Virus record (IMG/VR): IMGVR_UViG_3300032053_000197
Location: 1-39,266 of that record
DNA from: a virus
Length of the DNA stretch: 39,266 nt
Direction: 5' to 3' (one strand)
The notes below the pieces were generated by a model, which was not told the origin of the DNA, did not search any database, and saw nothing but the letters and a program-made list of their open reading frames with translations. The translations under genes and the position numbers were made by a program. Shown in pieces: positions 8,233-35,640 of this stretch (position 1 is its first letter; every line of letters starts with the position of its first letter).

Positions 8233-8826
8233 ATGCGATTTGAAATACCATTATCAGAAGAAATTTTACTTCACAGTACACAATTAAACGATTGTTTATT
8301 TTTAACTGGTGAATTAAAAATAGATATAGCGACTGTATTGGTTCAAGATTTGATGAAATTAGAAGCTAGAAATAGAGCTAATAACGAATTTAATCCAATT
8401 ACTCTTCTTATAAATTGTCCTGGAGGAGATTTATATAGTGCTTGGATGATCATCGACTGGATGAACCAAATGGTTACACCTATTGAAACATTTGCTTTAG
8501 GTCAAGCTGCCTCAGCAGGCTTAATGATTTTTATGAATGGTACTCAAGGTCTTAGAAAAGCCACAAAAAATACGCAATTCATGTCACATAGATATTCAAT
8601 TGGTATAGAAGCGAGTCATGCAGATTTAATGGCTCAAAGAAAAGAATTGGATAGAACTCACGATAGAATTATTAATCATTATATGAAATGTACTAAATTG
8701 ACTAAAAAAATTATTCAAGATCAATTATTAACTGAACATAATGTGTGGTTGGATGCTAAACAATGTAAAAAATTTAATATATGTGATGTAGTAACCGTAG
8801 ATTTTTTCAAAACTAAAGGAAAATAA
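8233..8826 (+). CDS. ClpP-like serine protease
   Basis: 197 residues, AAGGAAA ribosome site. The fold signature is clear: an LLINCPGGD segment with the oxyanion-loop glycines, then FALGQAASAGLMIF with nucleophile S94, then FMSHRYS with H119. S to H spacing is 25, as in E. coli ClpP. Near the C-terminus, TEHNVWLDAKQCKKFNICD aligns without gaps to the E. coli segment that begins TERDRF and ends in VD; this puts N170 where ClpP has its catalytic Asp171. The protein could be a weakened or altered ClpP-family enzyme. Its position next to nucleotide-metabolism genes, not head genes, favours a host-interacting or accessory protease over a prohead protease. Family assignment is strong; activity is uncertain. 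Confidence 0.85.
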   Translation: MRFEIPLSEEILLHSTQLNDCLFLTGELKIDIATVLVQDLMKLEARNRANNEFNPITLLINCPGGDLYSAWMIIDWMNQMVTPIETFALGQAASAGLMIFMNGTQGLRKATKNTQFMSHRYSIGIEASHADLMAQRKELDRTHDRIINHYMKCTKLTKKIIQDQLLTEHNVWLDAKQCKKFNICDVVTVDFFKTKGK

Positions 8827-11421: not shown

Positions 11422-12758
11422 TATGCATCCCCTTGTGATTTAATTTTTGTAGCGATCCAGTCGATGGTCCCAGTAAAATTATTTTCTGCCACAATAGTAA
11501 ATCCGGTCGATTTTTTATTAGTATACCACGTATTTATATTTTTATTACATGATAAATTTATTATATAATCACTTCCAGTAAAAGGATTTGCAAATGCAAT
11601 ATTAACATAATTTTGATTTTTAAACGATACATTTCCAGATTTTCGACCTATTGAATCATTTTTATTAATATCAAATATTATCGTATCTATACTCATATTG
11701 GTTATAGGAACATTAGATATAGAATTTGGAAATCCTAATAAACGACGTTCTAAAGATTTATAATGAATTCCGTTAGTATTACCATCTACACAACTATAAG
11801 ATACATCAGAAGTTAATATATCATCAGTATGAAATTGTATAGTTATTGTATGCGGTGGATCATTTTGTAATTCTATTTGATCTGACGTATTATCACAATT
11901 ACAACTAATTTTATTAGCAGTTGTAAATTCTGGCAATGCGCCAACGAATGTCAATATTGGTTGTTGTTCGGACGACAATGCCGAACTATTATTTATAGAT
12001 TTTCTATCCAATTCTACATTCGCAGTTTTATCAAATAATCTAAATAATATAGGTAAATTAGAAGATACTAATCTAGCATTAACTTTCGCTAATATAAAGC
12101 ATGCTTTATTAACATCTAATGGAGGCAATATAATTGATAAATTTGGAACATCGTGCCATCTCATAGACCCATCAGCATTATATGCATACCCATTAGGAGT
12201 TATATTAGAATCATAATCAGATAATTGTGATAAATATCGATCTAAAGAAAAAACTTTAGTGCCAACAGCATTACCAGGATAATCGTTAGTTTCAGTCAAT
12301 TTTACGAAAATTCGTCCATCTACAGTATTTTCTACAACTGTAGGATCTCCATTCACATCTACAATTATATTATTGCAATCATTATTTGTTATTTTTGTAC
12401 TACCGATCCAATATATGCCGCCAGTAGTTAATTTACTTTTCCATTGAACATATGCATCTATTATTTCTTTTAATGAATAAGGACGAGGAACTGTAGAATC
12501 TTTAAAATACAACACTCCATCAACAGAATATACACCTTGAATTCTTTGAAATAAATCTTTTAATTTAATATAATTTAATGGATTTCCATTAATATCAGTT
12601 AATGTTTTTGTATAATTATCTTTAAAAATTAGATTGCCATCACTATCAGCAGATATAGCATTATCCAAAGATGTAATATCGGTAGCACTTTGATTTGGTA
12701 TTCCCAAGCTTATTCCGTCAGTTATAAATGGTTCAGATGGTATTATAGGTTCAGTCAT
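11421..12758 (-). CDS. Fibre/adhesin with N-terminal docking-like domain and C-terminal beta-sandwich module
   Basis: 445 residues, AAGGAA before the ATG. The N-terminal 140 residues (DSDGNLIFKD...YIKLKDLF...GVLYFKD...SLKEIIDAY...GGIYWIGS) follow the same pattern as the N-terminus of the 650-residue protein at 16951-18903, suggesting a shared attachment domain. The middle is beta-rich with several Cys residues (CNCDN, YSCVDG). The last 75 residues are one copy of the recurrent module: VNIAFANPF, YIINL, NTWYTNKKSTGFTI, FTGTIDWIAT. It lies within the late adhesin operon. A virion adhesin role is inferred from module sharing and position. Confidence 0.75.
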   Translation of the reverse strand: MTEPIIPSEPFITDGISLGIPNQSATDITSLDNAISADSDGNLIFKDNYTKTLTDINGNPLNYIKLKDLFQRIQGVYSVDGVLYFKDSTVPRPYSLKEIIDAYVQWKSKLTTGGIYWIGSTKITNNDCNNIIVDVNGDPTVVENTVDGRIFVKLTETNDYPGNAVGTKVFSLDRYLSQLSDYDSNITPNGYAYNADGSMRWHDVPNLSIILPPLDVNKACFILAKVNARLVSSNLPILFRLFDKTANVELDRKSINNSSALSSEQQPILTFVGALPEFTTANKISCNCDNTSDQIELQNDPPHTITIQFHTDDILTSDVSYSCVDGNTNGIHYKSLERRLLGFPNSISNVPITNMSIDTIIFDINKNDSIGRKSGNVSFKNQNYVNIAFANPFTGSDYIINLSCNKNINTWYTNKKSTGFTIVAENNFTGTIDWIATKIKSQGDA

Positions 12759-12767
12759 AATTATTCC

Positions 12768-15700
12768 TTACTTATTAAATATATATCCATTTTCTGGTGG
12801 ATTTTGTATAATATCTTGCTCTGTAGTTTTCATAGTTACGGTTGCCATATAATCTACGGTGCCCGTCCAATTACTCATTTCAGATTTTATTGTGAACCCG
12901 CTAGTAGTTTTATTTTCCCACCAAACTTTTATATTTTCACTACAAGTCAATGCCACGTAATAGTTTGCGCCTACATCATCAGACATTGGAGTTGCAAATG
13001 TTACATTAACAGAATTCGTATTCGATTCAAAAAATACAGTGCCAAATCTTTCAACATCTATATTAGATTCAGCTTCAAATATAATACAATTTAAATCTGA
13101 TCTATTTCCATTAGCAGAAATAGCACTAGTATTAGTTGTATAATATGTATTAAAACGTCTTCCGTAATAATTTTTCAAGTATGAGTCTTCTTCTGGAATA
13201 TCTTCGGTATTCCATATATAAATTCGTTTAGAAGTAGGAGATGAATGCATACCACTTCCTAATAAAGTTTGCCCAACACTTCTAGAAATTTTATGTCCAC
13301 CAACTATTACAGATTTATCAACAGTTCCAAATATCATTTGTCCTATATTCCAAAATCCAATCTCTCTCCATTGAGTTACTGGATGAATTTTTACAGTTTT
13401 AAATCCAGAACCTAAAATAGAAATAGTATCATAATTTGGAGAATCGCCACCTAATCCTACACCATCCATATAACGTTTCCATTTACTTTGCAACATTATT
13501 CCTTTATTTGGAGTTAATACATTATTAGCATTAGATGTTACAACATATTCTGGGACTTTATATCTGCCGTCATCTCTAAATTCTTGTATGAAATTGGTAG
13601 AATATTCAGAATATACGTTACCACTATCCCCAACATTTATATCATGATTAGGATTTTCGTGAGTTATTAACGATTCGCAACTTTCAATAACGCAAGTTTT
13701 TAATTGAACTTGTACAATACCTGCTGGACACGCTTCCAATGTTGATATTAAAGTTCCTTCATTTTTTGCCAATAAAATAAGATTGATAGATGTTTGTAAC
13801 GTATTAGCACACGTATTAAATAAATCATATCTTACATTTGAATATAATTTTCCACTAGAAGTAAATTCAGTAGAACTTATAAATGTAAAATCATTAGGGA
13901 ACATTTTTATACCACTACAACATGCAGAACCAATTGAAGAAAATGATCCAGAAATTGCACTAGATACTACAGATTCAGCAGATCCCGTAATATAATTATT
14001 TCCACTAATACAATGCATTGCAGATATAGAAGTTAATGTACAATTTATTGGAAGATATGCTGTCGTATTATATGAATCAAATTTCCATTTTGTATTATTT
14101 ACAAAATTATATGTAACAGTTTTTAGATACGTTCCAGAAGATAGTATTGATGGAGATACGCTATTTAAAATAAAATTGTCACTATCTGTAGGAAATTCAA
14201 ATATTTCATTAGAACTAGTGATAGTACCTGTTACAAGTGATTCGACTGTAGTATTTGGACAACTATATAAACAATTAGTAGAAGAATCAAATTGGTATGT
14301 CAAACTTCCTGATGGCACAAAATTAACTGATGAAATATTCCAAATACATTCGTCAATATAATTATATTCTACATTAATATGTCTAGTACCATCAGTAGAG
14401 CTTATAGAATCAGAAATAGATTTTAAAAAGAAATGTGATGGAAATAAATGCCCGCCACCAGAGCAACAATTTAAATCTGGAAATGAATTATCTCCAGAAT
14501 TGCAAATTAATGAATATGTTTGAATACCACCAGTAATATTTACTAAGGTTGAAGACGGAGTAAATGTATAACTACATATTCCACTCACTCCAAGAGTATC
14601 AGAAATATCATATAATCTACCAATAGAATTCGGTTCATATGTTACAGTATTTACATTCCAATATGCTTTTATTTCTACATCATTTAATGCTACAACATTG
14701 TGTACTTGATCTTTGCTGTTACCTTCTACATAAATTCTATTATTTATTAATGCCATTGCGGAATTAGAACTAAATACTAAATTTGTGATAGAATAAAGAG
14801 TTTCAAATTTATTTCCATTAGAAAATTCAGTTCTATAATTGAATACATAATTTCCTAAATAATCTGTATCATTCGTAAATGCTGATGACCATAATGGTAC
14901 ACCCCATCTTTCATTAGTATCATTTCCTATAGATGCTATTATATTAAATTTTTCAGCAATATTAAAACTACTATCTTCCAATGTATATATCCAATCATAA
15001 TTTTTATTTTGTATTCCAACCATTACCCCATTATCACTAATCGTACTGAATTTAACTTGCGAATCTCCTGAAATAAAGGTTCCAGAAATTGGAAGCATAA
15101 GTGAATCAATAAGAGTTAGATTTTGTACGGACGAAGCATATGTATCAGTTAATATGGCATCACGTATATCATCTAATTTATTATACATTATATTGAACAC
15201 GCCTCTGTTTGCATATCCAGATATTGCGCCATTAATAGATGTATACATAAATGTATGTTGAAATGCGCCAATTAAATTTACTACCGATTCGTTTGCAACT
15301 ATACTTTGCAATGAACAACCTTTAAATTCATTGGTTATTGCACCAGATACATCATTTGGATACATTTTTATTTTATTTTTATATTGTAATTTAATTTCAT
15401 CAATAAATATTTGTCCATAAAATTCTATAGGTAAACTAGAAATACTTAATGTTGCAGCTTTTACTGGAAAATGATTGGTAGTTATTGATTGAAAATTTGC
15501 ACTTATAGTCAAAGTATCAACCGTTGGATAAGATATAATTACATTTGCTCCAGATATAATCTGATAATTTGACATTTCAGTAACCGGATTAACAGTATTT
15601 ATGAGACATGGAATATTTTTCCACGCAGTTCCCGTACATACAGGACTTCCTAAAATATTATTATATGACACAGCACTTAATCCGAAATCGAAACTTCCAT

Positions 15701-16949
15701 TTTCAGGAATAGATAAAAACGAAAACTTTGGAAAATCTGCATCTTTTATAAAATTAAAATAATTTCCAGTAGTATCGGCAGAATATGATGGATTACTTAT
15801 TAATATATGATCTCTATTAAAATTTGAGTTGTCAGTCCAAATTGGCTCTTGCCAACAAACACTAGAACTTAATGTTTTTGGATATCGTGTTCCATATAAT
15901 TTATCTTCTATTACATCTTTTATAAATTTATTATCAAAATTGAAATCGGAAAATTTAGGTAAGTCTAAGTTATCTAAATCACTATTATATGAAAAAGTAT
16001 ATTTAGAAATTGTTTCGTGTATTCCTCCAAAAAATACCGCATGAGTATCATTACCAACTCCACTATGATAGTAAACAGATTCTATTAAATTTTGTTGTCT
16101 TATCCAAGTTGTACCATCATATTTATAAACCAAATCTAATACTCGCGCTTTTTCCAATTCTGATTTAGATTCTAAATCGTCGAATAACGTAGAATATTTA
16201 TTCGTATATTTTTCGTTTATTTTAGTTTCAGCATGATCCAAAGAACTAGTTTCACATCTTCCACCAGTTGATAACCCGTTGCTATTATTACCAACATAAA
16301 CCATACCGTGACATTCTACCGGATATTTTTTATTTGGATTATTTTTAGAAAATCCAACAGCTAAACTAAAATGATCAACAGTATCAGTCGAACATCCACA
16401 TGTATCAGCGTCTTCTCCTAAATAACATATTGCAACATTGATTGCACCATCATTATTATCAAATGAATTATCATTAAATGTAAGTGTCAATGTTGAATTT
16501 GGAGCATTAACACATATATCAGAAAAGGCAATTTGTGGATTTTGATTAATATATTTTGCAATTTCTGCTGAACTTGCAAATCCAGCGGGGGTTACAAATA
16601 TAGATTTAAGATAATTACCATTTATAAAAACTTTTAAATCTGCAAAATATGTATTTTGTGGCGTAATAAATGAATTATCATCTGGTCTGCGATAAAACAA
16701 AGCTTGAGCTAGTCCAATTAATGGTAGTCCAATTAAGCCGCCAAATAATAATTGTGATATATCTATTCGTATATTTGTTCCAGGAATGCCCCATGATCCA
16801 GGAACTATATCATTTAAAGGGTCGAAATTATTTATCGTGGTTAAAGCTGATCCTATAGCGCCAGCAACACCTTCGGCAGCATTACTCGCAGCATTCCAGG
16901 CATCACCTAAAGCATCTGATACTGAACCTAATGGATTAGAATCTCCCAT
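12768..16949 (-). CDS. Very large Cys-rich fibre/adhesin protein
   Basis: 1393 residues from the ATG at 16949. That start is preferred over 16976 because GGAAGGAAGGGG lies just upstream of it and because the longer form overlaps the previous gene. The N-terminus has an Ala-rich amphipathic stretch and a hydrophobic segment (about 68-90, ending in ALFYRRPDD), unusual for a fibre. Many paired Cys occur (CGC, CCSG, SCP). Residues around 900-1110 hold three tandem beta repeats, each beginning near F-P and ending in V-x-Y; the third is the copy also found in the gene at 6202. A FRDDGR motif and one W-W-x-x-K...G-F-T-I module (about 12800-13040) close the protein. Function inferred as virion adhesin. 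Confidence 0.75.
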   Translation of the reverse strand: MGDSNPLGSVSDALGDAWNAASNAAEGVAGAIGSALTTINNFDPLNDIVPGSWGIPGTNIRIDISQLLFGGLIGLPLIGLAQALFYRRPDDNSFITPQNTYFADLKVFINGNYLKSIFVTPAGFASSAEIAKYINQNPQIAFSDICVNAPNSTLTLTFNDNSFDNNDGAINVAICYLGEDADTCGCSTDTVDHFSLAVGFSKNNPNKKYPVECHGMVYVGNNSNGLSTGGRCETSSLDHAETKINEKYTNKYSTLFDDLESKSELEKARVLDLVYKYDGTTWIRQQNLIESVYYHSGVGNDTHAVFFGGIHETISKYTFSYNSDLDNLDLPKFSDFNFDNKFIKDVIEDKLYGTRYPKTLSSSVCWQEPIWTDNSNFNRDHILISNPSYSADTTGNYFNFIKDADFPKFSFLSIPENGSFDFGLSAVSYNNILGSPVCTGTAWKNIPCLINTVNPVTEMSNYQIISGANVIISYPTVDTLTISANFQSITTNHFPVKAATLSISSLPIEFYGQIFIDEIKLQYKNKIKMYPNDVSGAITNEFKGCSLQSIVANESVVNLIGAFQHTFMYTSINGAISGYANRGVFNIMYNKLDDIRDAILTDTYASSVQNLTLIDSLMLPISGTFISGDSQVKFSTISDNGVMVGIQNKNYDWIYTLEDSSFNIAEKFNIIASIGNDTNERWGVPLWSSAFTNDTDYLGNYVFNYRTEFSNGNKFETLYSITNLVFSSNSAMALINNRIYVEGNSKDQVHNVVALNDVEIKAYWNVNTVTYEPNSIGRLYDISDTLGVSGICSYTFTPSSTLVNITGGIQTYSLICNSGDNSFPDLNCCSGGGHLFPSHFFLKSISDSISSTDGTRHINVEYNYIDECIWNISSVNFVPSGSLTYQFDSSTNCLYSCPNTTVESLVTGTITSSNEIFEFPTDSDNFILNSVSPSILSSGTYLKTVTYNFVNNTKWKFDSYNTTAYLPINCTLTSISAMHCISGNNYITGSAESVVSSAISGSFSSIGSACCSGIKMFPNDFTFISSTEFTSSGKLYSNVRYDLFNTCANTLQTSINLILLAKNEGTLISTLEACPAGIVQVQLKTCVIESCESLITHENPNHDINVGDSGNVYSEYSTNFIQEFRDDGRYKVPEYVVTSNANNVLTPNKGIMLQSKWKRYMDGVGLGGDSPNYDTISILGSGFKTVKIHPVTQWREIGFWNIGQMIFGTVDKSVIVGGHKISRSVGQTLLGSGMHSSPTSKRIYIWNTEDIPEEDSYLKNYYGRRFNTYYTTNTSAISANGNRSDLNCIIFEAESNIDVERFGTVFFESNTNSVNVTFATPMSDDVGANYYVALTCSENIKVWWENKTTSGFTIKSEMSNWTGTVDYMATVTMKTTEQDIIQNPPENGYIFNK

Positions 16950-16950
16950 A

Positions 16951-18903
16951 TTATAACCCCTTCCTTCCGGCACCATTTATATAAATAATTCTATATTTTC
17001 CACAATTTGTAAGATTTATAGATGTTCCATTTTTTTCTTTACAATCTACTATTAAAACATCTTTAACTTTTGATATACATTTACCAGTATATTTATTTTC
17101 ATCAAATCTAAATTTATCAGCAACATTTATAAATATACAACTTATTTCTTCAAATGAATCTAAAATATCATCATTGGTAGTAGTAGTTGACAAATACGAA
17201 TTTCCAGTAGAATTGCCTCCATATATAAATCCATTTATATTAATTATACTATATCGCTTTGCATTAGAAGTTCCAGAATAACTATCGACAAATTCTGTAA
17301 TGCGCTGTTCATCAGTACTATTAGTTGGATATGTTTTTAATATATTAGTAACTTCAAATTTATCTTTTCTATCATCTACAGTAACATCCAAAGTTCCTGC
17401 CGCGTCGCCTCGCCCTATTGTTAAAAATATATCAGGAATTTTCTTAAAATATGACACTAATGGTATATCACTTTTTATAAATATTTCCATATCATTTCGT
17501 ACTGTAGTTTTACCATATTCTGAAAATTGAGTTTTATCAGAATAATTAAAATCTGAAAATCCTCCAACAACTACTGCACATTTTGAAGTACTTCCACCTT
17601 GCAAATGAAAGGCTCTTTGTACATTAGCATGAGTATCTATATTTTTTAAAAATCCTATACTATTCCAAATTTCAACGTTGTCTAATATTTTAGGAGCTGA
17701 ATTTTCAGATTTCTGAATTCCTCCAAATACTATACCTTCACTTATATCACCATTAGCACCACCAAAAGACCGATCAACATTTAATAATCCCAATTGTCTA
17801 GAATTATTATTTAAATCCGAACTTTTCCAATTTATAGGATCAATAGTATTTAATACTTCTTTTTTATTGGGATTATATTGAGTATTTAAAGAAAGTTGCG
17901 CTGATATAAGATGCGATATTTCATTACTTGAAGTTGTTGAAGTATTATCGTCACAATTTGAACTTTTATAATTTCCCAATTGACCTATATTTTGTAAATT
18001 TGCAGTATTAGTTAATCCACCAATCCAATGATTAATAATAGTGTCAGTAAACACCCCAGAATTATGATTTGCTTTTGTTTGGGAAATATCAAATACTACA
18101 TCTGCTGTAGAATCTTTTATTCTAGTTCCTAATGTGGAATCTATTGTGTAATATTTACCAAAGAAATTACTATCAAAAGAATAATTTAAATTTAATAAAA
18201 TTTGAGCTATTTTTAATTTTTCGAATGGTTTTGTTGATATTTGTAAATCTGGAACTGAAAACCATCCATTAGAATTAAGATCATTAGAATTTATAGGACC
18301 AGAATATGTTGTAGGATTTTTTGAGTATTTTTTATATTCGTCATTTAAATATTTATCTGGCGACCAAAAGCTTAATAACTCTTTTGCACCTTGTGACCCA
18401 AAGCCATATCCACTAACATTAGGAATTGATACGTTTAAGTATCTAGAGTTATTTCCTTCTAAATCCGTAGTCACTTTTCCAATCCACCAAACGTTTCCAA
18501 ATTTATTCAATCTATTATATACTAAAAACGAATCAACATCTTTAACGAAATCGTATAACGTTATTTCGCCAACATCTATATCTTTAAATGTTAACTGTTC
18601 TTTTATTTCAGACCACGACAAATTAGAATTAGCATATTCCCACAATTCTTTTAAAGTTATATAATCTATTTTTTCATTTGACCCCGAAACTAATAAGGTA
18701 TTATTAGTCCATTCATCTTTAAAACACATTTCAGAACCACTTCCAGAAGGCACTTTTGAATGAAATATATTTTTAAAATTTGGAGCATAAATTTTACAGG
18801 AATCTTTTTTATTATACGTAAATACAATGCCCGTATATGCTTGAAAATATTGCATTGGGGATGGAGTAGAACATATACAATTTAATGATGGAGTAACTGC
18901 CAT
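16951..18903 (-). CDS. Adhesin with shared N-terminal domain and Kelch-like repeats
   Basis: 650 residues. The N-terminal 150 residues (KDEWTNNTLLVSG, YITLKELWEYA, LTFKDI, LYDFVKDVD, NVWWIGKV) mirror the head domain of the protein at 11421. From about residue 380 there are degenerate Kelch-type strands: EGIVFGGIQ, CAVVVGGFSD and INGFIYGGNSTG, spaced over about 220 residues. The start ATG follows GAGGA, and two TATAAATA boxes occur in the 61-base gap upstream, so this gene probably begins a late transcription unit covering 18903 down to 9517. The protein ends in a small Gly-rich tail (NGAGRKGL). The stop lies one base before the next ATG at 16949. Receptor or glycan binding is inferred. Confidence 0.73.
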   Translation of the reverse strand: MAVTPSLNCICSTPSPMQYFQAYTGIVFTYNKKDSCKIYAPNFKNIFHSKVPSGSGSEMCFKDEWTNNTLLVSGSNEKIDYITLKELWEYANSNLSWSEIKEQLTFKDIDVGEITLYDFVKDVDSFLVYNRLNKFGNVWWIGKVTTDLEGNNSRYLNVSIPNVSGYGFGSQGAKELLSFWSPDKYLNDEYKKYSKNPTTYSGPINSNDLNSNGWFSVPDLQISTKPFEKLKIAQILLNLNYSFDSNFFGKYYTIDSTLGTRIKDSTADVVFDISQTKANHNSGVFTDTIINHWIGGLTNTANLQNIGQLGNYKSSNCDDNTSTTSSNEISHLISAQLSLNTQYNPNKKEVLNTIDPINWKSSDLNNNSRQLGLLNVDRSFGGANGDISEGIVFGGIQKSENSAPKILDNVEIWNSIGFLKNIDTHANVQRAFHLQGGSTSKCAVVVGGFSDFNYSDKTQFSEYGKTTVRNDMEIFIKSDIPLVSYFKKIPDIFLTIGRGDAAGTLDVTVDDRKDKFEVTNILKTYPTNSTDEQRITEFVDSYSGTSNAKRYSIININGFIYGGNSTGNSYLSTTTTNDDILDSFEEISCIFINVADKFRFDENKYTGKCISKVKDVLIVDCKEKNGTSINLTNCGKYRIIYINGAGRKGL

Positions 18904-18925
18904 TTATAATATAATCCTCAAGTTG

Positions 18926-18933
18926 TATTTATA
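18926..18933 (-). promoter_or_regulatory. Candidate T4-type late promoter box (TATAAATA), proximal
   Basis: Exact octamer on the minus strand, 23 bases upstream of the ATG at 18903. Predicted start near 18920, just at the TGAGGA ribosome site, so the leader would be about 17 bases. Confidence 0.5.
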
Positions 18934-18956
18934 TATTATAACAGGTTTTATAAATA

Positions 18957-18964
18957 TATTTATA
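18957..18964 (-). promoter_or_regulatory. Candidate T4-type late promoter box (TATAAATA), distal
   Basis: A second exact octamer in the same gap, directly after the stop codon of the upstream gene. It would give a leader of about 48 bases with the full ribosome site. A plus-strand TATAAATA (18949-18956) abuts it, so some of this may just be AT-rich palindromic sequence. Confidence 0.4.
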
Positions 18965-20632: not shown

Positions 20633-20653
20633 TTTTTATTCCTTTATAAGTAT

Positions 20654-23600
20654 TTAATTTAATTCTTGCCACCACTCTATTCCTTTTTTAATTGCTACCC
20701 AATGTATAGTGCATGGAGTAGGAGAACTGGTTTTTATTCTAAATTGATTTGATTCTTTTTCATTCCAGTAAATATTTATATTTTCATCACTGGAAAGTAT
20801 CAAAGAATAGCCAATATCCATATCCATATTCATAATACCAGAATCGCCGTCAACTGTTATTTCAGGTTTTACCAACAATTCATTATTGTACCAAACTGGC
20901 ATATTTGCAGTTGTTGGTGATTCTCCTTGAGTAGTTTCTACAGATCCTGTTATAACTCTTTTTCCAACGTATATGGAATTCGGCGTATAAACTCCACCAA
21001 ATATGTCTCTATGAAATGCCATCCAACAAACTTCTTTGACTAAATAATTACTACAGGTAATCGTAAATTTATTATTACATACGAGCTGCCAATATACTTT
21101 TTGATTGGCTGGATTTGATAATACTATGAAATAATCCGAATTTTTAAAAGGAGTTTTAAATTTTATAGTTTCACTTTTTACTTTACCATTTACTTTTAAT
21201 GACCCAGATTTAAATAATGAAGTATCCATAGTTTTAGATATTATCCAATCTATATCTTTACTAAACCCGTTAAATGATGTTAATAAATTAAATCTATTAT
21301 CATCTTTTCGTTCATAATATGTATTTACATTAGAATTTGGTGTTAATGAAACAAGACCAGTCATTCGTGTATTGTTTGTTTGACCCATATTTCCTCCTGC
21401 GGTACTTCCAGATTCTATTATATCAAATCCGAATTGTCTTATATCATTTATATAAGTATAACTAGGTTTTAAGACATTTGCTGTTTGTTTTATAAAATCT
21501 ATAAATTGTGTTTTTACATTTTCGTCAAAAAATAGACTTTCTTCTGCTGGAGTATCAATTTCCATATCAAATTTGTGGGATTTGTATACTTTAGCTATTC
21601 CATACATATATTCTTTTTCTATTTTTGTTAATCTCAAATCTCCATTTGAAGTTTTTTCGTATATCATTGGTTCGCCAACATTGAATATTTTCCCAGTATT
21701 GTATGATAATCTTTCATCATACAATATACTTTCAAATGACCAAGTTCCTAGATTACTAGGAGAATTAAATAAATTCTTTTTTAATTTGATATATTCGGTT
21801 TTACTTTTAGCTGATTCGGCACATCCGTAAAATAAATATATTTTTGTATTAGGAACATAATTTGTTAATTTTATCCATAATACTACATAATCTTTAGAAT
21901 ATTCGAATGTATTAATTTTAAAATTTATTGGATTTGAAAAATTCGAATCTGAATATAATCTTAAATTTTTATCATTAATATTCATTTTTGAAAAATCAAA
22001 AGGATAATCTTGAGATAATTTGTAATTTTTATTTAATCTTAATGTGTTAAAATCGTCTACAGTTAACGTATTAAATTGATCAACTGTTAGTGTATTTAAA
22101 TACAATTTAGGATTGTCAGTTTTATAACCATTTCCATATAATATAATTGGTATAACAATATCTCTATTTAAGTCATTAATACTATTATCAATACCATATA
22201 TATTCATTATTCTATAATATTTAAATTGGGTTTGATTTTGAAATATTTGTTTATTAACTTGAAGTTCTGATCCAATATCTATATTTAAATTATTTAAAAA
22301 TGCATTGTGCGTATTTTTAATATAGTATAAATTTTGTGAAGTAGAAGAATTTAACACTTCTAAATAATTTATTTTCATATTAAACGTTTTATTTGGATTA
22401 ATTAATATATAACTTAAATATGTTATGCTAGTCACTCTAGTTTGAATATCAAATATCGGAGTAATATTACCTTTAAAATAAAATTTATAATTTACCAAAT
22501 AATCATCAGGACCTATATTTTTAAAATAAAGTTTTATGGAAAACGGTTGATATGTTCCAGGTTCCAAAATATATGGCAGATCGTCGATTTGTAAATTTTT
22601 ATAAGTTTTTCCTAAAGGCTCACTAGATGTACCCGTAGTGCCAGTGGAACCAGTGGAGCCACTAGAATTAGTATTATAATATGTATCATTAAATGAATCG
22701 TAAACTGAATCATATTCTATGTTGTTTTTATCATAATATGCAACTTTCCAAAGATTTTTATTAAAATTATATTTAAATGAAATTTGTGAATTTGATGTAG
22801 CTGGTAATGTTGAAGCTATAGTAATCCATTCATCTTTGTATGTTCTATCTGCCCATTCAATAGGAATTGATAAACTATTCGATTTTGAATCATCTATTAT
22901 ATTTTGTTGAAACCATGGTCTATCATATGGAATTCCATTTGGCATGTTATTAATCGTATTTGATAACGAAAAATATGTCAATTTATTTTCATATACGTTT
23001 TCATCATTGTCTATAGAAATATCAGTAGTAAATAATAAATTATTTAAATTTGTATTATTATTGTCTAATTCATATGTAATAAAACTTTTTTTAACTTTAA
23101 ATTCTTTTGTATGAATTGAATTTAAATCTACATATCTAGTTCCATCTAATAAAGATTTTATCGTTCTTAATGATTCAACGTCCGAATCTACATTTTTTGT
23201 ATCGGAAATTATTATCGAATTTATAGAATTCTTAACATTATTAAATGCTGTAAGTCTTTGATCTGTCAATAATGTAGTTGGGAAAAGTCTATGAGATAAA
23301 ACCTGAGAACTATCTCCAGGAAAATGCTTAAATTTATTAAATTTATTAGATATTATATCTTTTTCGAAAACGTATAATAATTGATTTTTATTTAAATTTA
23401 TATCAGATATATTTACAATTAGGGAGTTTTTAGTATCTCTAGTAAATAATATAAATAAATCGTCAAATTGAGATAAATTTATACCTTCTACATATTTTCT
23501 TATTATTTTATTATTATCTAAATTAAAGTTTAATATATGTCTATTATTATATCCGACATATATAGAATCAAATGTTACACTATTTGTCCAAATGTTAGTA

Positions 23601-24700: not shown

Positions 24701-27700
24701 TAAATGTCCTTAAATAATATATTTAGCATATTATCATTTATAACTATTTGGTCTATTTTCTTATTAGAATATTTCATATATGATCTCAATTCATCTGAAT
24801 AGTATGTTTTATCTTTTATCAAAATTGGATATTCTGTGGCAAATCCTTCTTGATATATTCTTAATATTATATCATATCGCCCCAATATACCACTTAACGA
24901 CCAATTAATAGTCCTGTCACCACCAATAGTAAATACTAATCTATCTTCCAATTCCAATGTAGTAGTAGTATAATCTATTAATATATCATTTCTATATAAT
25001 TTAATTTGAGATAAATTAGGAATAAATTTATAAAAATCTTCAGGATTTGAAATATTGTAACAATTTTCATTTAAAGACCATATTATTTCATGATCACCTA
25101 CAACCCATTCATTTAACCCTATCCCAGAATCATCTTTTTGTATTTTTTCTATAATAATTATTTTGTCTTCTACTACATAAAACGTTTCTACTGGACCATT
25201 ATATTTATCTGCGGCATTATTTGCGTGTTTAAAATATAATACATCATTTATTAATATATAAATAGTAAAGTTTAGAGCTTGTTGAATTTTCTTAATATCA
25301 GGATTTTTAGGTAATGAATATATAAATTTTATATTTTCAATTAAATCATTATATGAGACACCATCCATACCAAATCCACATTTGTAATCTTTTGGTTTAT
25401 AATACTCAAAAATTACATTTGTTATATATGTATACGGATTAAACACTCTAAATCCAGAATAATAACCATTTATTGGCAACGTTTTCGCCAATTCTTCTTT
25501 GAAATTCTTTAAAGTATAATCTTCACTTACAGTTGTATTTAAATCTATAGGATAAGTAATTGACAAATTTTTTAAACCAACAACTATACTTTGCAATGTT
25601 TCAAATTCTCCCTTTAAATATCTTTCAGTCAATTTTTCATATTTCTTATCTATATTATAATGTAATACTAATTGCTCATTTTGACCACGTTCATTTAAAT
25701 ATACATTTATATAAGTTTCATTAATGCTGGCTCTTACTGTATACCATGTATCATTTTTTATACCTTTTGTATTAAAATTTCCATATGAAGCTAGATAGGT
25801 TTCCTGTATTAAATTCGCCCCACTAACAGATCGCATCCCCAAACCTATATCAAAGTTATAAGTGCCAATACCAACAAAATAAAAATCATTTATTTTATTT
25901 TCACCGTCTGTATAATTATTTTTCGCTTTCAATATTAATTCAAATTTTCGTTCATAATTATTATCAAATATTATTTTATCAAATATTACATCACACGATA
26001 TAGAAAAATTATTTGAAGGATAATCTATTAAATTTATTACATCTATAGACCCATTGTTATTATTTATTCCAACATCTATTCCAACTGAGCCATTACCACT
26101 AAACGCATTAGAACTTTCATTATCGAACTTATTAGATAATTTATAACACTGTTCACCTTTATAATTTTCGATTATAAACGGTTCAGATTCTGAAGCGACT
26201 TTTAAACTTAAATCTGGAGTTCGTCTAGCAACTTTATATGTATTATTTTCTGATATTAAATTTATCCAATTTATTTCTCTAGTTTTGATAAAGTCATCTT
26301 TTAATGTATTTTTTTGTAATTCTACATTTGTGTATTTATCAGAATATACACTTACTATAATTTTACTGTCTCCAATTAAAGTATCATAATTAAATTGAGA
26401 AGACTGAGTATTTAATACGATATCCGTGGTTTTTGTTATTTGATTGGTTTTTAAATAAAATGAATCTGGGGGAATTTCATAATTATCTATTACTATTTGT
26501 GAGATATGTGTCACCCAATTTGGATAATATACATATTTAGATGGTATATTATACATAGAATCAATACCGTTAGATACTCCCAAAGTTATTTCATTTTGTT
26601 GTGACGTATTTTCAAATACTTCTAATAATTTTATTATAGAATTTTTTGTAGGAATATATTTTTCATAAAATGACCAATATGAATTTAATTTAAAATACAT
26701 ATTATCTATTTGACCATATATATTATTAAACTTAAAACAATCTACAAATTGTGAATTTAATTCTGTAATTTCCCAATTATATCTAAATGGTGAAGTTGCA
26801 TTATTTATTTTATTTGCGTGACCGTAAAACCAATTATATAAGCCATATGGACTTATCGTTCTTGATATACCAGATTCTCCATCAATATAACTTCCAAAAT
26901 ATAAACTCAAATTACCAGAAGTTGTAACATTTTGCAACGGCAATGGCGCATTTATATTTGCACCAATAGATATTACTTTTTCATAACCTAAAATACTTGA
27001 ACTATTTTCATCAAACCCTATATTGTTATATCCAGATATGCTAAATATTCCAATATTATATTCGTTTTTATCTGTTGATCCAAAGTTGCCATCCCAACTG
27101 GTATTTGACACACACCACGATGAATCTATAATGTATTTTCCAACATCTGCATAAAAATTATCTAAAGATAACTGTAGCCCTTGGCTATTTTCTATATAGT
27201 TACCAAAAAAATAATTAGGATCATTAAGTCCAGAGTATACAGCGTTATTAGTATTATCTGGATATGATATAGAAAAATTTCGTTTTAGCCAAGATCCTTT
27301 AGGACTCCACCATTCATAATCTGCTGCAAAATTATCAGAGTTTGCTTCTAAATATTTTATAATATTTATTATTTCTGTTGGCATAATAAATGCATTTGGA
27401 ATACTACTACACGCATCTTCTGATAATATATTATTAGGCTCTTGATTAACTCCACACTTATATTCTAGATTAAAATTGACAGGATTTTTAATATATTCAG
27501 TTATTTTTCCATAAAATCTAGTATCAATATCAATATAATAATTAGATTTTATTAACGATTTATATTTAGATTCCCATCTATTTAATTTATTTAATATTAT
27601 TTCGGTTTTTGATTTAACATTTAATTTATCTATAGGTATATTTACATATACGCCTTTTAAATGTATAGATGGAATATTACCACTTCTAAATATTTCTGGT

Positions 27701-30700
27701 GCTGGTAAAAATATCAACTGATTAACTGATAATTTTCCAATAGGTACAAAATATCTAATAGGGTTAATATTTTCTAATTTTAAGTTACTGTTAGCGTATT
27801 GCTCAAAATTATCTATAGTGTGACCAGTGGTTTCAGGTAAAGTTATTTCATAAAGTCCCCAAATTATAGAATCTACACAATAATCACATATTAATACGTC
27901 CATGATATCCGAACTTCGAACTTTAACGCCAATTGCATTATTTTTAGTGGTTTTATCTAAATAAATTATTTCAAATACTTCGTTATCAATCACAGTTACA
28001 GCATTTGACGTAGTTATTGCCCAAGTTGAAACGTTAGATAGTGGACAAACTTCTTCCCAAACGCCATTATATACGCTTATATCTGTAGAATTTAATATTG
28101 TTGATAATGGATTTTTGGTTGATAATAACAAAAGATTATTACTATCTTTATTCATTTCTGATATATAAATTTTACTATCAGAACTTAAAGCCATCGTATG
28201 AGGTAAAATTTTAGAATTTTCTGTTATAAATGGAGTATAGCCACCTTGTACAGATTTAAGATATGCAGTATTGCTAGAATCTATTTCAGACCAATTTATA
28301 TACGGCTCATAAAAATTACCATAAGGAATAATTATAGAATCCATCACGTCATTAACATTTTTAAATCTATTATTTAAATAATCTCTATTAAATATTATAT
28401 TAAATCTAGTGCCCCAATCTTCAATATTGACATTACTTGACGATAAATTATTTATTAAATTATCTGACAATATTAAATTTGTCGAAATTTGACTTTCGCC
28501 ACTGTATGTAGAAGCTATTGTTACATCGTATAATGGTATAGATTTATCTTCGTCATTTTTAGTATATTTTAACACTTTATTATTTCTAGAATCTAAATAC
28601 TTAGTTTTTATGTTTTTATATTTATTTATATTATCATATAAATTTTCATCTACTTTATCGAATGATTGAATTTTAAAATCATGAATTTTGAATAAAGATG
28701 ATTGGACAGCAACTCCGTAATATCCAGCAGACATTATAGGCTCATAAATATCAGAAACGTTTACTATATTATGGTTTAAATCGCACGTTTGTACATCTTT
28801 AGTAGTTTGAGTTACTAAAATATTTTCTAAAAGTGTAACATATTCAGTATCATCAACATATTGTAAAATATTTTTTCCACCATTAGATTTTAAATTATTC
28901 ACCAAATTTGTAAATTTATCGTTTTGTCTATATTTTATAGTCAATAAATCGTCTATTATTGTTAATTTTATGTCATAATATATATTATCTTGCAATTCAA
29001 AATTTAATCCATTCTCATCTAATATAGTTTTATTAAATATTTGTGAATCTTGTAAAGTCAAATTGGAATTTAAATTCAATTTATGAACTATAGGACCGCT
29101 AGCTTCTTTTGAATACATTATTTTAGCTACACTTATTTCGCCATCTAATCCATTTAATATAACAGCATAATAATTATCAATATTCGCATATAAGTCATTT
29201 TTAATATAATTTGCTCTAAATATTAATAATAATGTTTTTTGTGGTAGATTTCTATTAGAATTAGTTTCAAATTCATTTATGGCATTTGAACTAAATTTAA
29301 TATTCATTTCTAAATTTTTATATAATTTATCAGAATTAATTATTCCAGAAATAATATCTGTTTCTTTATTAGATTCAGAATATAATATATTTATTAAATC
29401 CCCACCTTCAATATAATCATTATTAATATATAAATATCCTTTTCCTAAATTATTTTCTATTTCAGATGAATCTAAGTTTATAGTTAAAAATGAATCAGTA
29501 GGGATAGTAGATTTTGCAATTATATTTGCAAATTTTATTACCATGCTTGAAGTGTCATCTAAATACGATTCCCAATATAATTTTAATTTTTTAGTTACCA
29601 ATGAACTATACGCAGCTTTAACTTCAAATGCATAATATCCTTGTTTAAGATAATAGTATCCACTAGATTCATAATTTTGATTTTGTCTTAATTCTATAAT
29701 TCCATATTCGCCTTTTTTAGAATATAAATTGAATGAATTACTATTAGCCGTTGTACCAATTGGTGTTATTACTGTTGTACCATCTCTATCAAATGTTATA
29801 TTATCTATAGAACTTATTTGATTTATTTCTTCCAAGGTATAAGTTTTAGTGTGTTTTAAACTGAATAATGAAACTTGCTGTTCAGATTGATTAGAATCTG
29901 TTTGCGAATTTCCAGATTCTAATCCAAATACATAATATCCATCATTTGGAACATTTATAAAACCCCTAGCAACTATAAAAAAATCATTAGAAGTTTCAAC
30001 TGATATGCCTTGAATTAAATTTGGATCAGTACCAGAAGTTACATAATTAACGAATGGTAATGTCGTTACTAATGACGGTTTTCTTAAAGAATCTTGACTT
30101 ATTCCTGGAATATTATCAGGTACGGTCACGCCAAAATTCCAATCTGCCCAAATATAATCGTCTGTAACATCGCCATTTATTCCAGGTTCATCTATTTCAT
30201 TTAATCCATCTGGTAATACGCCTAAAGTATTAAATAATGTTCCAACATAATTGGTTGGAGCATTCCAAATTTTATAATTTATACTACTATATAATAATTT
30301 ATTTACCCCTTTCCAGTTTTCATTTTTTATTATATTAATACCATCATCTTTAATGGCACTGGTTGCTGAGGTACAAGAAGAAAGTGGTTGAATACCATTA
30401 CAGTATAGCGGATTTGATAACATTCGACCATCATCTCTAAATATCTCTTTAACCATTGGATTATAATCGTTAATTTCAAATTGCGCATTACAACCATCTG
30501 AACTAAGCACATCTCCTGGATATGAAACTTTTGAAATAAAATGATAATTATCTAATAATAAATTATTAAAAGAACCGCATATTTTTGCCTTATTATTATC
30601 CCAACCCGTTATTGAAAATCCTTTAAAAATAAATTTATTATTTGAATTTTCTAATGTAGGATCATTAAAAAAATTATCAGTTATTTCAGTATCTGAAGTT

Positions 30701-31545
30701 TGTGAAAAATTTGTTGTCCATAATTCTTTTATATTAATTATAAAATTATACAATTTAAAAAAGTTTTCTATTCCAACCTTTGATCCATTTTGTTTAAATA
30801 AACTAGCAGTATCTATTATAAATTGACGAAATAATGATATTTCAGGAGGTCCAGCAATTCCTTTTTCTATTCTTTCAAATATATCATAATTTAAAAAATC
30901 TTGTTTGACCGTATTTTCTTCTTGTACAGAATATCCAACTTTTTTAGCATAAAATCTTTTATGATTTAAAGTATCACTAAAAAATTCTAAAAATTTAGGT
31001 GCAACTTTTTTTATATCCATTAAATTAGAAACTTCATTAATTTCTTTGTACATTCTATCATACATAATACTCGACGATGAAATTAAATCATTAAAAGCTG
31101 GACTATTATCCATCGCTTCTAAATGGGGTGCAGTCATGTGCATTTTTATCCACGTTAACATAGTGGATTCTATTTTTAAATCTATAATTTTAATATTTAT
31201 TATTCTAAATACCGTTCCAGTAGCGTTGTCATAAATTTCATTAGAATAAATAGATAATTTTACACTGTATATACCAGGAAATTCATAATATTTTATTTCA
31301 TTTATATTATTTGAATATGTACTATCACCAAAATCCCAAATCGTCTTATCTATTAAGGATACTGTATAACTATCAAGGGATTCGCTGGGAACATATATAA
31401 CGCCGTTTGAATCTACAGCATAAGTATATTCGTTAATTACAGGAATACCAACAGAAGACGCATTTTCAAATTCTATACGAACTGGAGCACTTAATAATTT
31501 TATATCAGTAGGAAAATATGTAAAATCTGATTTGAAATTAGTCAT
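24700..31545 (-). CDS. 2281-residue baseplate-adhesin fusion: PKD, P2 gpI-like, LamG/PA14-like segments
   Basis: The gene directly follows the gp6-like gene (TAATG overlap; AGAGGTTG upstream). Residues about 65-105 form a PKD-type domain (WDFGDSTYSNN, then YYEFPGIYSVKL). Residues about 160-275 carry a segment like P2 gpI baseplate/tail proteins: helical, with SLFRQFIIDTASLFKQNGS and GIENFFKLYNF. Gene order spike, gp25, gp6/J, gpI supports that reading. The remaining ~2000 residues are beta-rich: a PA14-like region (about 29540-29970, GYYVFGLES and LKQGYYAFEV), then two LamG-like segments (about 28910-29310 and 25650-26010, the latter with WYTVRASINETYINVYLNE). It is far longer than gpI (176 residues in P2) or T4 gp7 (1032). 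Domain calls beyond PKD and gpI are tentative. Confidence 0.75.
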   Translation of the reverse strand: MTNFKSDFTYFPTDIKLLSAPVRIEFENASSVGIPVINEYTYAVDSNGVIYVPSESLDSYTVSLIDKTIWDFGDSTYSNNINEIKYYEFPGIYSVKLSIYSNEIYDNATGTVFRIINIKIIDLKIESTMLTWIKMHMTAPHLEAMDNSPAFNDLISSSSIMYDRMYKEINEVSNLMDIKKVAPKFLEFFSDTLNHKRFYAKKVGYSVQEENTVKQDFLNYDIFERIEKGIAGPPEISLFRQFIIDTASLFKQNGSKVGIENFFKLYNFIINIKELWTTNFSQTSDTEITDNFFNDPTLENSNNKFIFKGFSITGWDNNKAKICGSFNNLLLDNYHFISKVSYPGDVLSSDGCNAQFEINDYNPMVKEIFRDDGRMLSNPLYCNGIQPLSSCTSATSAIKDDGINIIKNENWKGVNKLLYSSINYKIWNAPTNYVGTLFNTLGVLPDGLNEIDEPGINGDVTDDYIWADWNFGVTVPDNIPGISQDSLRKPSLVTTLPFVNYVTSGTDPNLIQGISVETSNDFFIVARGFINVPNDGYYVFGLESGNSQTDSNQSEQQVSLFSLKHTKTYTLEEINQISSIDNITFDRDGTTVITPIGTTANSNSFNLYSKKGEYGIIELRQNQNYESSGYYYLKQGYYAFEVKAAYSSLVTKKLKLYWESYLDDTSSMVIKFANIIAKSTIPTDSFLTINLDSSEIENNLGKGYLYINNDYIEGGDLINILYSESNKETDIISGIINSDKLYKNLEMNIKFSSNAINEFETNSNRNLPQKTLLLIFRANYIKNDLYANIDNYYAVILNGLDGEISVAKIMYSKEASGPIVHKLNLNSNLTLQDSQIFNKTILDENGLNFELQDNIYYDIKLTIIDDLLTIKYRQNDKFTNLVNNLKSNGGKNILQYVDDTEYVTLLENILVTQTTKDVQTCDLNHNIVNVSDIYEPIMSAGYYGVAVQSSLFKIHDFKIQSFDKVDENLYDNINKYKNIKTKYLDSRNNKVLKYTKNDEDKSIPLYDVTIASTYSGESQISTNLILSDNLINNLSSSNVNIEDWGTRFNIIFNRDYLNNRFKNVNDVMDSIIIPYGNFYEPYINWSEIDSSNTAYLKSVQGGYTPFITENSKILPHTMALSSDSKIYISEMNKDSNNLLLLSTKNPLSTILNSTDISVYNGVWEEVCPLSNVSTWAITTSNAVTVIDNEVFEIIYLDKTTKNNAIGVKVRSSDIMDVLICDYCVDSIIWGLYEITLPETTGHTIDNFEQYANSNLKLENINPIRYFVPIGKLSVNQLIFLPAPEIFRSGNIPSIHLKGVYVNIPIDKLNVKSKTEIILNKLNRWESKYKSLIKSNYYIDIDTRFYGKITEYIKNPVNFNLEYKCGVNQEPNNILSEDACSSIPNAFIMPTEIINIIKYLEANSDNFAADYEWWSPKGSWLKRNFSISYPDNTNNAVYSGLNDPNYFFGNYIENSQGLQLSLDNFYADVGKYIIDSSWCVSNTSWDGNFGSTDKNEYNIGIFSISGYNNIGFDENSSSILGYEKVISIGANINAPLPLQNVTTSGNLSLYFGSYIDGESGISRTISPYGLYNWFYGHANKINNATSPFRYNWEITELNSQFVDCFKFNNIYGQIDNMYFKLNSYWSFYEKYIPTKNSIIKLLEVFENTSQQNEITLGVSNGIDSMYNIPSKYVYYPNWVTHISQIVIDNYEIPPDSFYLKTNQITKTTDIVLNTQSSQFNYDTLIGDSKIIVSVYSDKYTNVELQKNTLKDDFIKTREINWINLISENNTYKVARRTPDLSLKVASESEPFIIENYKGEQCYKLSNKFDNESSNAFSGNGSVGIDVGINNNNGSIDVINLIDYPSNNFSISCDVIFDKIIFDNNYERKFELILKAKNNYTDGENKINDFYFVGIGTYNFDIGLGMRSVSGANLIQETYLASYGNFNTKGIKNDTWYTVRASINETYINVYLNERGQNEQLVLHYNIDKKYEKLTERYLKGEFETLQSIVVGLKNLSITYPIDLNTTVSEDYTLKNFKEELAKTLPINGYYSGFRVFNPYTYITNVIFEYYKPKDYKCGFGMDGVSYNDLIENIKFIYSLPKNPDIKKIQQALNFTIYILINDVLYFKHANNAADKYNGPVETFYVVEDKIIIIEKIQKDDSGIGLNEWVVGDHEIIWSLNENCYNISNPEDFYKFIPNLSQIKLYRNDILIDYTTTTLELEDRLVFTIGGDRTINWSLSGILGRYDIILRIYQEGFATEYPILIKDKTYYSDELRSYMKYSNKKIDQIVINDNMLNILFKDI

Positions 31546-34500
31546 TACGATTCAACCTCTATGATAATATTTCCCAATAATGGAAATTCATATTTATTTA
31601 AAACTAAATTTTGACTTAATACCCAATTTTTTGTACTAGTTTTTGTATCAGTAACGCTAAACAATGGATCAATTAAAGTAATTAAATCTGGATCTTTAGA
31701 TAATAATTCTAATATTTTTCGTCTTTTAACATCTTGAATTGTTTCAGTTGCTAATGTTGTACCTTCTGTAATATAATCGTTGGGAAGTAACCCATTAGTA
31801 TTTTTATTAATCGCAATTTCTGCATTTTCAACTTCTGAAACTTCTAAAACTATTTTTTGAAGTGGACCTATTTCTATCGTTTCGCCCATTTGATGATTAT
31901 TTCTATCAAAATATTCTGTTAATTGATTTTTTATTAATGCTTGTATTGTTGACGGACTTCCAAATTTTGTAGGTTTAAATCTAACTCTAATATCTATTTT
32001 AACAGTTTTAGCAGCTATTAATTCATGTTCTACTGTAGCCATAGCTTTAAATTTTTTATTTAATGTATTTAATATAAAATCTCTATGCGATTTTAAAATA
32101 GTATCTCCATATTTAGGTAAAGCTACAATAAATATATAATTAAACCAATATTTGTTTAATATATCTTGGGATACCACTGTAGTATTTAGTAAATCTTGAT
32201 ATGATAATACTTGAGTTTTTATTATGTAATCGCTAAAATATTGATCACAAAATGATTTATAATCTTCTATTGAAACAACTCTATCTTGACGTAAATTAGC
32301 AGTTGACGCATTATTTCGCAATTCTTCTACAGTTTCTACAAAATTACCACCATATGCAGAATTTGATTGTTTTACTACTAATTCAGTCTCAGTTAATTTA
32401 GTACCTTCTGAATCATATATAGCAGTGTTAGAAAAAGATTGACCAGCGGCGAAGGTAGTTTGAGATTTTAATCCAACTAATTGAATAAACTGTTGTTCAA
32501 ATTGAATAGTTACGTCTTCATCACCTAAAATATTTTTTGATAATAATATAGACGAACTTAACGAATTTGGAGGAACATTTCCATCAGAACCCACAGATTT
32601 TAAGCCAAAAATCGTTATTTCACTCCCATTAGGATCAATTCCATAATTTATGCCGTCGCCAAACGATATTTCTATTTTTTGATATTCATTAACTCTTACA
32701 AAAAATACTTTTTCTCCGACTTTACTTTCTACAGATTTAGTTTGCGATGATGCATCGGTCCACTCTTCCCAAATATTAGCAGAATTTTTAACAAATACTC
32801 TTATATCAGAATATGAAATTGTAGTATTGTCTATTTGAAATTTTATTTCATCTTGAGATTTTCTATCTGCGGTAAATGATATATTTAAATTATTATTTGA
32901 TGAGTTTATCGCACCATTTGAATTGATGTATGAAAATAATATATTACCTTGTTTTAAATTAGAAATTAGAAATGTTTCTGGGATATTAACAAATCTTATT
33001 CCAGGTAAGACTCCATTTGTCAATTGTCCAGAAAAGTTAACCATGCCATGTTTTTGATATTGATAAAATGATGACTGGTCAGTAAACCAATCTACAGTTA
33101 TTTGACCATCAAACCCAGATTCCACATTAATCGTAAATCCATTTTGTGTCTTATTAGTATACCAAACATTATAATTTAAATTTGCCACCATATGTAATCC
33201 GTAAGTTACATCAACAAATGGTACATCAAATGTTATATCTTTAGTTAATACGTCAGTGGTTAAATTTACTCTTCCTTTTTTCTGAGTTGATGAATCTTTC
33301 TCAGATATTACGGCTTGATCTGTGGATAAAGTAAATAAAGAATATGAAATTGTACCATTGAATACTTTTTCGGTATTTATTTTAAATCCATTTTTATTTT
33401 TTTCAGAGTACCAAACTCTAACATTATCTGACGCTGCTAAAAATACAGTATAATCTACATCTAATCCGTTAATTTGGGGAATTGCGGTATCAAAATATAC
33501 TTGAGTTTGTATTATCTCATTAGTCTTAAATCTAGTAGCTAACCAATTTATTTTTCCAGAAAATCCGGTGTTAGGTTCTATATTTATAGAAAATCCGTTT
33601 TCACTTTTGTCAGTATACCACAATTGAACGTTTTCATTTGGCGTTAATTCAATTATATAATCAACACTTTCACCAGTAGAAGCTGTTGCAAATGGCGCTT
33701 CGAATGGTATGAATATTTTTGTCACATTTTCTGGAACATCAATTATTCCAGTTTTTTGTTCAGTTGTAGTTATGTCTATTTGGGGTATAGCTTGAAAATT
33801 TCCGTATCTCTGACCAACTTCTTTATCCATAGCTTTTATATTAGAATTTGGATCAACGTAACTTGGATATATTTTAGCGAGAGTAACTTCATTAACTCCA
33901 GGATCTTTGGACGTTACCGTTAATGAAGAATTATAATTAGTATCTGGAGAATCTGGATTTCCTACTGTTAGATTTATATTGTAAGATTCTTGATTTATAT
34001 CCCACGAATTTATAGTAAATATTTGAGAGCTAATTTTACCTTGATTAAAGGTATATACTACTCCATCTATTAAAACTTCAAATGGTGGTTTATCGCCCGC
34101 GCGATTTACATCTAAATGAATTTGTTTTATGCCGTTAGTTGTATTTTCTAATTTATCATAACTAAAACTTAACGAATCTAAATTATTAGTACCTAATACT
34201 CCTAAATAAAATCTACCTTTAGAATTATTTTGTATTTGTTTTAATGTATAAAAATCACCATCTTTTTCTAACATTACCGAAATAATTATATTATCCCGAT
34301 TTTCTTCTAGGCGTGAACCTTCTTCCATCAATGTGAGATATGGAGTTGAAGATTGATTGTCGAAATTAAATACTACATAATAAACAACTCCAGGAAGTAT
34401 ATTAAATGCGACAGGTCTTGAATAAATATTTCTATTAAAAGGTTGACCGACAGAAGATGAATCAGATCCTACGAATAATGGAATTAAAGGATCAAATTTT

Positions 34501-35253: not shown

Positions 35254-35640
35254 CTATAGTTTGTCTAATTTAACACTCAAAGTGTCTAATTTTTGAGTGT
35301 TAGTTAATCTATATACAACTTGTATATTATATATAGTAGTTTTCCAATCCATATCTACATTAACATTAACAATTTCAACTCTTGGCTCATAATTTTTTAA
35401 AGTTTCTTCTATTTCAATACCTAATTGTTTAGCGGTAGTTTCATCAAACGGCTCAAATAAAAACCCTTTTATACGACACCCATAATCTGGTAAAAATATT
35501 CTAGATCCTCTTGCAACGTTTATTATCATATATAAACTTTGTTTTACAGATTTTTCATTCGTAACTGTGCTTATATTACCTTCGGAGTTTATTATTGGAT
35601 TTAAAGATAAATCTTCATAATAAATGTCTTTTTTTACCAT
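35254..35640 (-). CDS. Baseplate wedge protein, gp25-like
   Basis: 128 residues, very close to T4 gp25 (132). It shows the family pattern: an early SVKQSLYMIINVARGSRIF helix, a PDYGCRIKGFLFEPFD stretch, and the signature EPR triplet (residues 85-87, in NYEPRVEI) followed by beta strands. In T4-like and P2-like phages this protein pairs with gp6 at the core of the baseplate wedge and is a conserved sheath-initiation element. GGGGA lies four bases before the ATG, and a TATAAATA box lies 25 bases upstream, so it probably starts a late unit. The gp6-like gene follows 13 bases later. Confidence 0.92.
   Translation of the reverse strand: MVKKDIYYEDLSLNPIINSEGNISTVTNEKSVKQSLYMIINVARGSRIFLPDYGCRIKGFLFEPFDETTAKQLGIEIEETLKNYEPRVEIVNVNVDMDWKTTIYNIQVVYRLTNTQKLDTLSVKLDKL

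Follow-up and report, generated by a model that had tools for sequence, protein, structure and literature searches.

The H-type lectins (PF09458; Helix pomatia agglutinin, HPA; SLL-2; the C-terminal domain of discoidin) are like the module described here in predicted fold, and their Pfam pattern resembles its motif order, V-x-F-x-x-P-F ... N-x-x-W ... G-F-x-I ... W-x-A. HPA is a homotrimer (PMC8431231), other relatives form trimers for which polysaccharide binding is either established or assumed (PMC6363177, PMC6116203), and in lectins and fibres alike the fold touches polysaccharide via its distal loops (PMC6363177). AP22 gp53 (PF21882), the R-pyocin foot and the Pam1 tailspike (7EEA) carry this fold at the C-terminal end of fibre proteins, one domain per chain. 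Carbohydrate-binding-type modules are also found inside wedge proteins. In a Gram-positive myophage, the wedge protein Vp4 Gp119 has CBM folds and binds cells, while a CBM-less homologue does not (PMC11406892), and domain IV of AlgoCIS Alg11 is a large insertion of this type in a conserved wedge protein (PMC8894135).

Unlike the H-type lectins, the module of the locus analysed here scores below the Pfam cut-off, has shorter distal loops, and is arranged in tandem triplets within a baseplate wedge protein; unlike AP22 gp53, the R-pyocin foot and Pam1, to which its sequence relation is weak, it is not restricted to one domain per chain. Vp4 Gp119 differs in having CBM16/xylanase-CBM folds, in being the third wedge protein rather than gp6, and in lacking a fixed triplet (PMC11406892), and Alg11 differs in having two CBMs of another fold and in belonging to a bacterial injection system (PMC8894135), its cage being hypothetical for gp6. 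The T4-like gp6 proteins of S-CRM01, P-SSM2, Cr30 and phiN3 have in common with the present one the N-terminal domain, the core and the order gp25-gp6-gp7, but are 589-647 aa long and carry neither such an insertion nor the module. There is precedent for the fold, for its placement at the ends of fibres and for wedge proteins with carbohydrate-binding inserts; as far as open-access literature searches reached, an H-type lectin fold in gp6, its invariant triplet, a 3+3+1+1 distribution of copies throughout a phage clade and a stand-alone triplet gene are new.

The window, that is, the whole IMG/VR record IMGVR_UViG_3300032053_000197 (a single contig of 39,266 bases), contains eight copies of the module, all on the minus strand, which were all recovered when the copy of the 445-aa protein was used as the sole tblastn query (E 5e-46 to 1.6e-4). 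Three lie in the gp6-like wedge protein P0001: w1 (33531-33749; HMM 82.9 bits), w2 (33333-33518; 64.6 bits, profile match from position 8) and w3 (33075-33275; 70.6 bits). Three more stand at the C-terminal end of P0002, a 1348-aa virion protein termed the adhesin (20654-24700): a0 (about 21233-21379; 47.3 bits), a1 (21011-21205; 60.9 bits) and the C-terminal a2 (20687-20836; 45.8 bits). Single copies end the fibre-like P0003 (1402 aa, 12768-16976), as c3 (12837-13043; 80.6 bits), and P0004 (445 aa, 11421-12758), as c4 (11445-11636; 75.6 bits). In leave-one-out scoring, each copy reached 30.8-66.0 bits against a profile from the other seven (a0, 31.2 bits), compared with a maximum of 11.3 bits among 1920 shuffled ORFs, and in the window alignment the copies were 25-41% identical to the first one. 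The first-pass annotation of this DNA had listed seven copies, all of which are real and lie within about 30 nt of where it had placed them; it had correctly put one at each of the C-termini of the proteins at 12768 and 11421, but credited the adhesin with two copies instead of three, missing a0.

The structure of c4, modelled alone with AlphaFold2 from a 65-sequence alignment, was an H-type lectin fold (pLDDT 93.7, pTM 0.80). Foldseek against the PDB gave the C-terminus of the Pam1 tailspike (7EEA) as the closest solved match (TM 0.79, 1.6 A), followed by SLL-2 (TM 0.68), HPA (0.57-0.68), Helix aspersa agglutinin (0.64), the R2 pyocin fibre (0.61-0.68) and the R1 pyocin fibre. Most of these matches had a probability of 1.00; their E-values of 1e-3 to 0.2, none reaching 0.001, are modest because the query has just 73 residues. 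The matches of the c4 model in a viral structure library were mostly tail-fibre ends. From these models, it is nearly certain that the module possesses an H-type lectin fold.

The sequence comparisons gave a different picture for family assignment. H_lectin was the Pfam family matched by the most members, weakly and in only 12 of 65 (best E 0.0035), and no window copy exceeded its gathering cut-off of 24 bits, w3 being the only one matched at all (13.5 bits). Five of the 65 members weakly matched Gp53-like_C (PF21882; best 4.5e-4), again under the cut-off, and hhalign against the AP22 gp53 family gave a probability of 5.2 and an E-value of 0.0074 (shuffled best 0.081), too weak to place the module in that family. 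A PDB sequence search with the module profile (hmmsearch) returned only 7EEA (E 0.08) and chance antibody matches. Membership of the Pfam H_lectin family is thus not supported by these profile scores. Of the earlier annotation, the fold guessed from the strand pattern was upheld, in one copy, by AlphaFold2 and Foldseek, and so was its statement that no described family has exactly this signature.

P0001 (1231 aa; 31545-35240, minus strand) had been called gp6-like, and several lines of evidence bear this out. Its residues 12-71 match Gp6-like_1st (PF21379) at 32.1 bits, over the cut-off of 27, PHROG 219 (baseplate wedge) matches it at 1.3e-41, and phmmer finds gp6 of PDB entry 9f4a at 3.9e-7. 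Directly upstream lies a gp25-like baseplate wedge gene (35254-35640, minus strand; PF04965 GPW_gp25, 1.5e-17). On the other side, a 2281-aa protein (24700-31545, minus strand) occupies the place of gp7 by gene order; it has no gp7 match and no family beyond a weak PKD_4. The order gp25-gp6-gp7 is the same as in the contigs L060, L063 and L064 and in T4-like phages. In hhalign comparisons with six T4-like gp6 proteins (589-647 aa), P0001 residues 1-150 and 794-1143 align with probabilities of 99.0 and 98.6, corresponding to residues 1-150 and 172-475 of S-CRM01 gp6, respectively. By these alignments, P0001 is a true T4-like gp6 with an insertion of ~640 residues (residues ~151-793; 32862-34790, minus strand) between the N-terminal domain and the core. 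The triplet forms a cassette in the last part of this insertion (residues ~485-755; 32976-33788, minus strand). Its first part (residues ~151-485; ~33786-34790, minus strand) has no recognised family and is retained in relatives without the triplet.

Two 9-bp minisatellites were observed outside the modules, at 34591-34701 in gp6 (residues 183-218) and at 10001-10116 in P0008, with 98% and 100% matches, both encoding (Gly-Thr-Thr)n from different repeat units. The collagen-like loop that results in gp6 is missing from all 17 gp6 orthologues, so it seems to have grown recently in the wedge protein and was ruled out as part of the module system.

AlphaFold2 modelling of the gp6 triplet (P0001 residues 489-733, 245 residues, with 18 orthologues) gave a pLDDT of 86.2 and a pTM of 0.81, and DSSP assigned six, five and six strands to w1, w2 and w3, respectively. 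Three domains of ~75 residues with undefined placement would be expected to give a pTM well below 0.81, so the predictor positions the three domains mutually with confidence, and the triplet is predicted to be one rigid body. No single model in the viral structure library superposed on the whole triplet. T4 gp6 does not assemble as a 'wedge trimer', and a pseudo-trimer within the chain is the more plausible arrangement of its three copies.

Searches with module profiles retrieved many IMG/VR contigs, three of which are 214, 263 and 332 kb long. To offset the bias of such a retrieval, a second search for gp6 used its N-terminal 150 residues as the query. Three strong copies were found in 21 of the 23 full-length close gp6 relatives obtained in this way; these 21 are 1159-1242 aa long, and several of their contigs are near-duplicates. 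The two others, L087 (847 aa) and L088 (874 aa), have no module copy; their gap coincides with the triplet, while the first part of the insertion is retained. Such a clean absence indicates that gp6 can manage without the cassette, and either gain or loss of the cassette could account for the difference. No copies were found in 30 T4-like gp6 genes of more remote relationship, the complete ones of which encode 598-674 aa. Queries with the gp6 core domain revealed no additional group, the w2 profile found no relative in bacterial and archaeal genomes, and a whole-gp6 query of viral contigs, whose exact peptides were too specific, gave no matches.

Copies were then counted with a 65-row profile (A7), as the eight-row copy alignment was too divergent for scanning. 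Exactly eight copies were present in 8 of the first 18 records, several of the others being short or incomplete. When nine phages, the window included, were examined gene by gene, all nine showed the 3+3+1+1 distribution; in one of them (G005), the first adhesin copy was under the threshold yet readable in the translation, and was counted. Five of the nine phages encode the adhesin triplet as a separate gene (260-287 aa), and the other four have it fused to the large adhesin. Stops within the matches had raised the suspicion that the adhesin is read with TAG recoding; this was ruled out, as the triplet is its own gene in those phages and record-wide ORF lengths do not favour recoding. The copies c3 and c4 are always C-terminal, and the length of the proteins that c3 terminates varies between 1342 and 3292 aa. 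Two further records deviate from the distribution: G024 has the gp6 triplet and no other detected copy in its remaining ~24 kb, and G019, the record of L087, has no copy in 38 kb. A 533-aa protein with one C-terminal module was also observed in L045 and L046 (8585-10183 in both), where no gp6 triplet was seen.

Since characterised members of the fold are trimers, the module appears to be used in two modes, one copy per chain and three tandem copies, and as the H-type lectins are homotrimeric, a pseudo-trimer is the natural reading of three tandem copies. In the mechanism that we favour, with a rough probability of 0.45, the modules would form trimeric lectin-type knobs that serve as adhesive contacts around the baseplate, as pseudo-trimers where they lie in single chains. 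The single copies at the C-terminal ends of the two fibre-like proteins P0003 and P0004, which are assumed to be trimeric, would meet as a trimer of three chains, and the three tandem copies of gp6 and of the adhesin would pack as an intramolecular pseudo-trimer, probably with threefold symmetry. Equivalent knobs would then stand on fibres, adhesin and wedge, presumably exposed on the virion, where they would most likely make several weak contacts with host surface glycans and keep the baseplate flat before contraction. That at least some copies bind glycan has a chance near one half.

Host contact is usually credited to fibres. Retention of the triplet cassette in a wedge core protein, on contigs of up to 332 kb, suggests either baseplate adhesion or the use of lectin folds as architecture. 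It is a tentative proposition, which we hold at well under even odds, that an uncultured and partly jumbo-size phage clade has covalent pseudo-trimers of a trimeric lectin fold in its non-trimeric gp6, as knobs matching those of the fibre tips; if true, this would represent a general way of equipping a subunit that lacks threefold symmetry with a binding domain that has it. Adhesion and architecture could each be tested directly on a single small protein, the product of the stand-alone triplet gene (~270 aa), for which the naturally cassette-less gp6 genes of L087 and L088 are ready controls.

The loops and the pace of evolution bear on whether the knobs bind sugar at all. With loop names L1-L5 inferred from strand order, the distal-type loops L1/L3/L5 of w1 have 5/5/7 residues (DSSP on the model), compared with 22/12/9 residues in HPA (PMC6363177). 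In the gp6 modules, conservation is above average in L3 and L5, while L1, L2 and L4 vary. Among the nine phages, the mean pairwise identity is 43-49% at every copy position, and the fibre-tip copies diversify no faster than the wedge copies; such even rates at all eight positions give no sign of host-range diversification. With loops this short and partly conserved, a purely structural knob is a serious rival, possible though somewhat doubtful in our judgement; its trimeric or pseudo-trimeric modules would act as a docking joint that connects fibres, adhesin and wedge, or as a trimerisation cap that shuts the fibre ends, and would bind no sugar. Further, the conserved L3 and L5 together with the equal pace of all copies agree no less well with a structural role or an unchanging ligand than with recognition of different hosts. 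The closest solved match, being the C-terminal end of a trimeric tailspike, also agrees with a cap, as does the strictly terminal position of c3 and c4 despite the widely varying length of the c3 carrier. However, the two relatives without a gp6 cassette, one of them (G019) copy-less throughout its 38 kb, indicate that such a joint is not universal, the solitary gp6 triplet of G024 is hard to square with copies that bind each other, and among the members of the fold that have been characterised, most are polysaccharide binders (PMC6363177).

Adhesive knobs around the baseplate may also be considered against an arrangement in which the gp6 insertion and its triplet surround the central spike, shielding it and making the first cell contact. 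In AlgoCIS, two carbohydrate-binding modules lie in domain IV (residues 278-643), a large insertion in the baseplate wedge component Alg11, and six Alg11 copies form a hexagonal cage; MACs and T6SSiv show such a cage as well (PMC8894135). The insertion in gp6 exceeds that of Alg11 in size and has its three lectin-fold modules at its end. Nevertheless, the module fold differs, AlgoCIS CBM1 having been compared with CBM27, and the same insertion site in Alg11 and gp6 is an assumption, so that we consider a cage of this kind unlikely; a location around the spike could be compatible with either adhesion or a structural role.

In a FastTree phylogeny of 74 copies, w1 (21 copies), w2 (20) and w3 (20) each formed a clean split, with support of 0.94, 0.95 and 0.81, respectively. 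As the copies from about 20 contigs thus form one monophyletic group per gp6 position, the triplication is older than the clade. A recent duplication, or a sequencing or assembly artefact, as the source of the triplet, for which the near-perfect 9-bp repeats in gp6 and P0008 might speak, is refuted by this tree and carries a negligible probability, the copies being just 25-41% identical to the first and the repeats lying outside the modules.

Several other features were observed in the window and its relatives. The N-terminal ~300 residues of P0004 (11421-12758) and P0006 (16951-18903) are related (23% identity, E 1e-7), and the lectin module terminates P0004 but not P0006. A 261-aa ORF (6202-6987, minus strand) has a ~144-residue stretch in common with the middle of P0003 (28% identity, E 2e-8). 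The 214-kb record G005 (L173-L183) carries 18 tRNA genes, one of them with a CTA anticodon (L183:10415-10487; tRNA-Pyl according to ARAGORN), but TAG recoding as a general feature finds no support in its ORF statistics. In the window, a ClpP-like protease is encoded at 8233-8826 (plus strand; PF00574, 1.5e-30), with other non-virion genes next to it, one of them for a deoxynucleotide monophosphate kinase.
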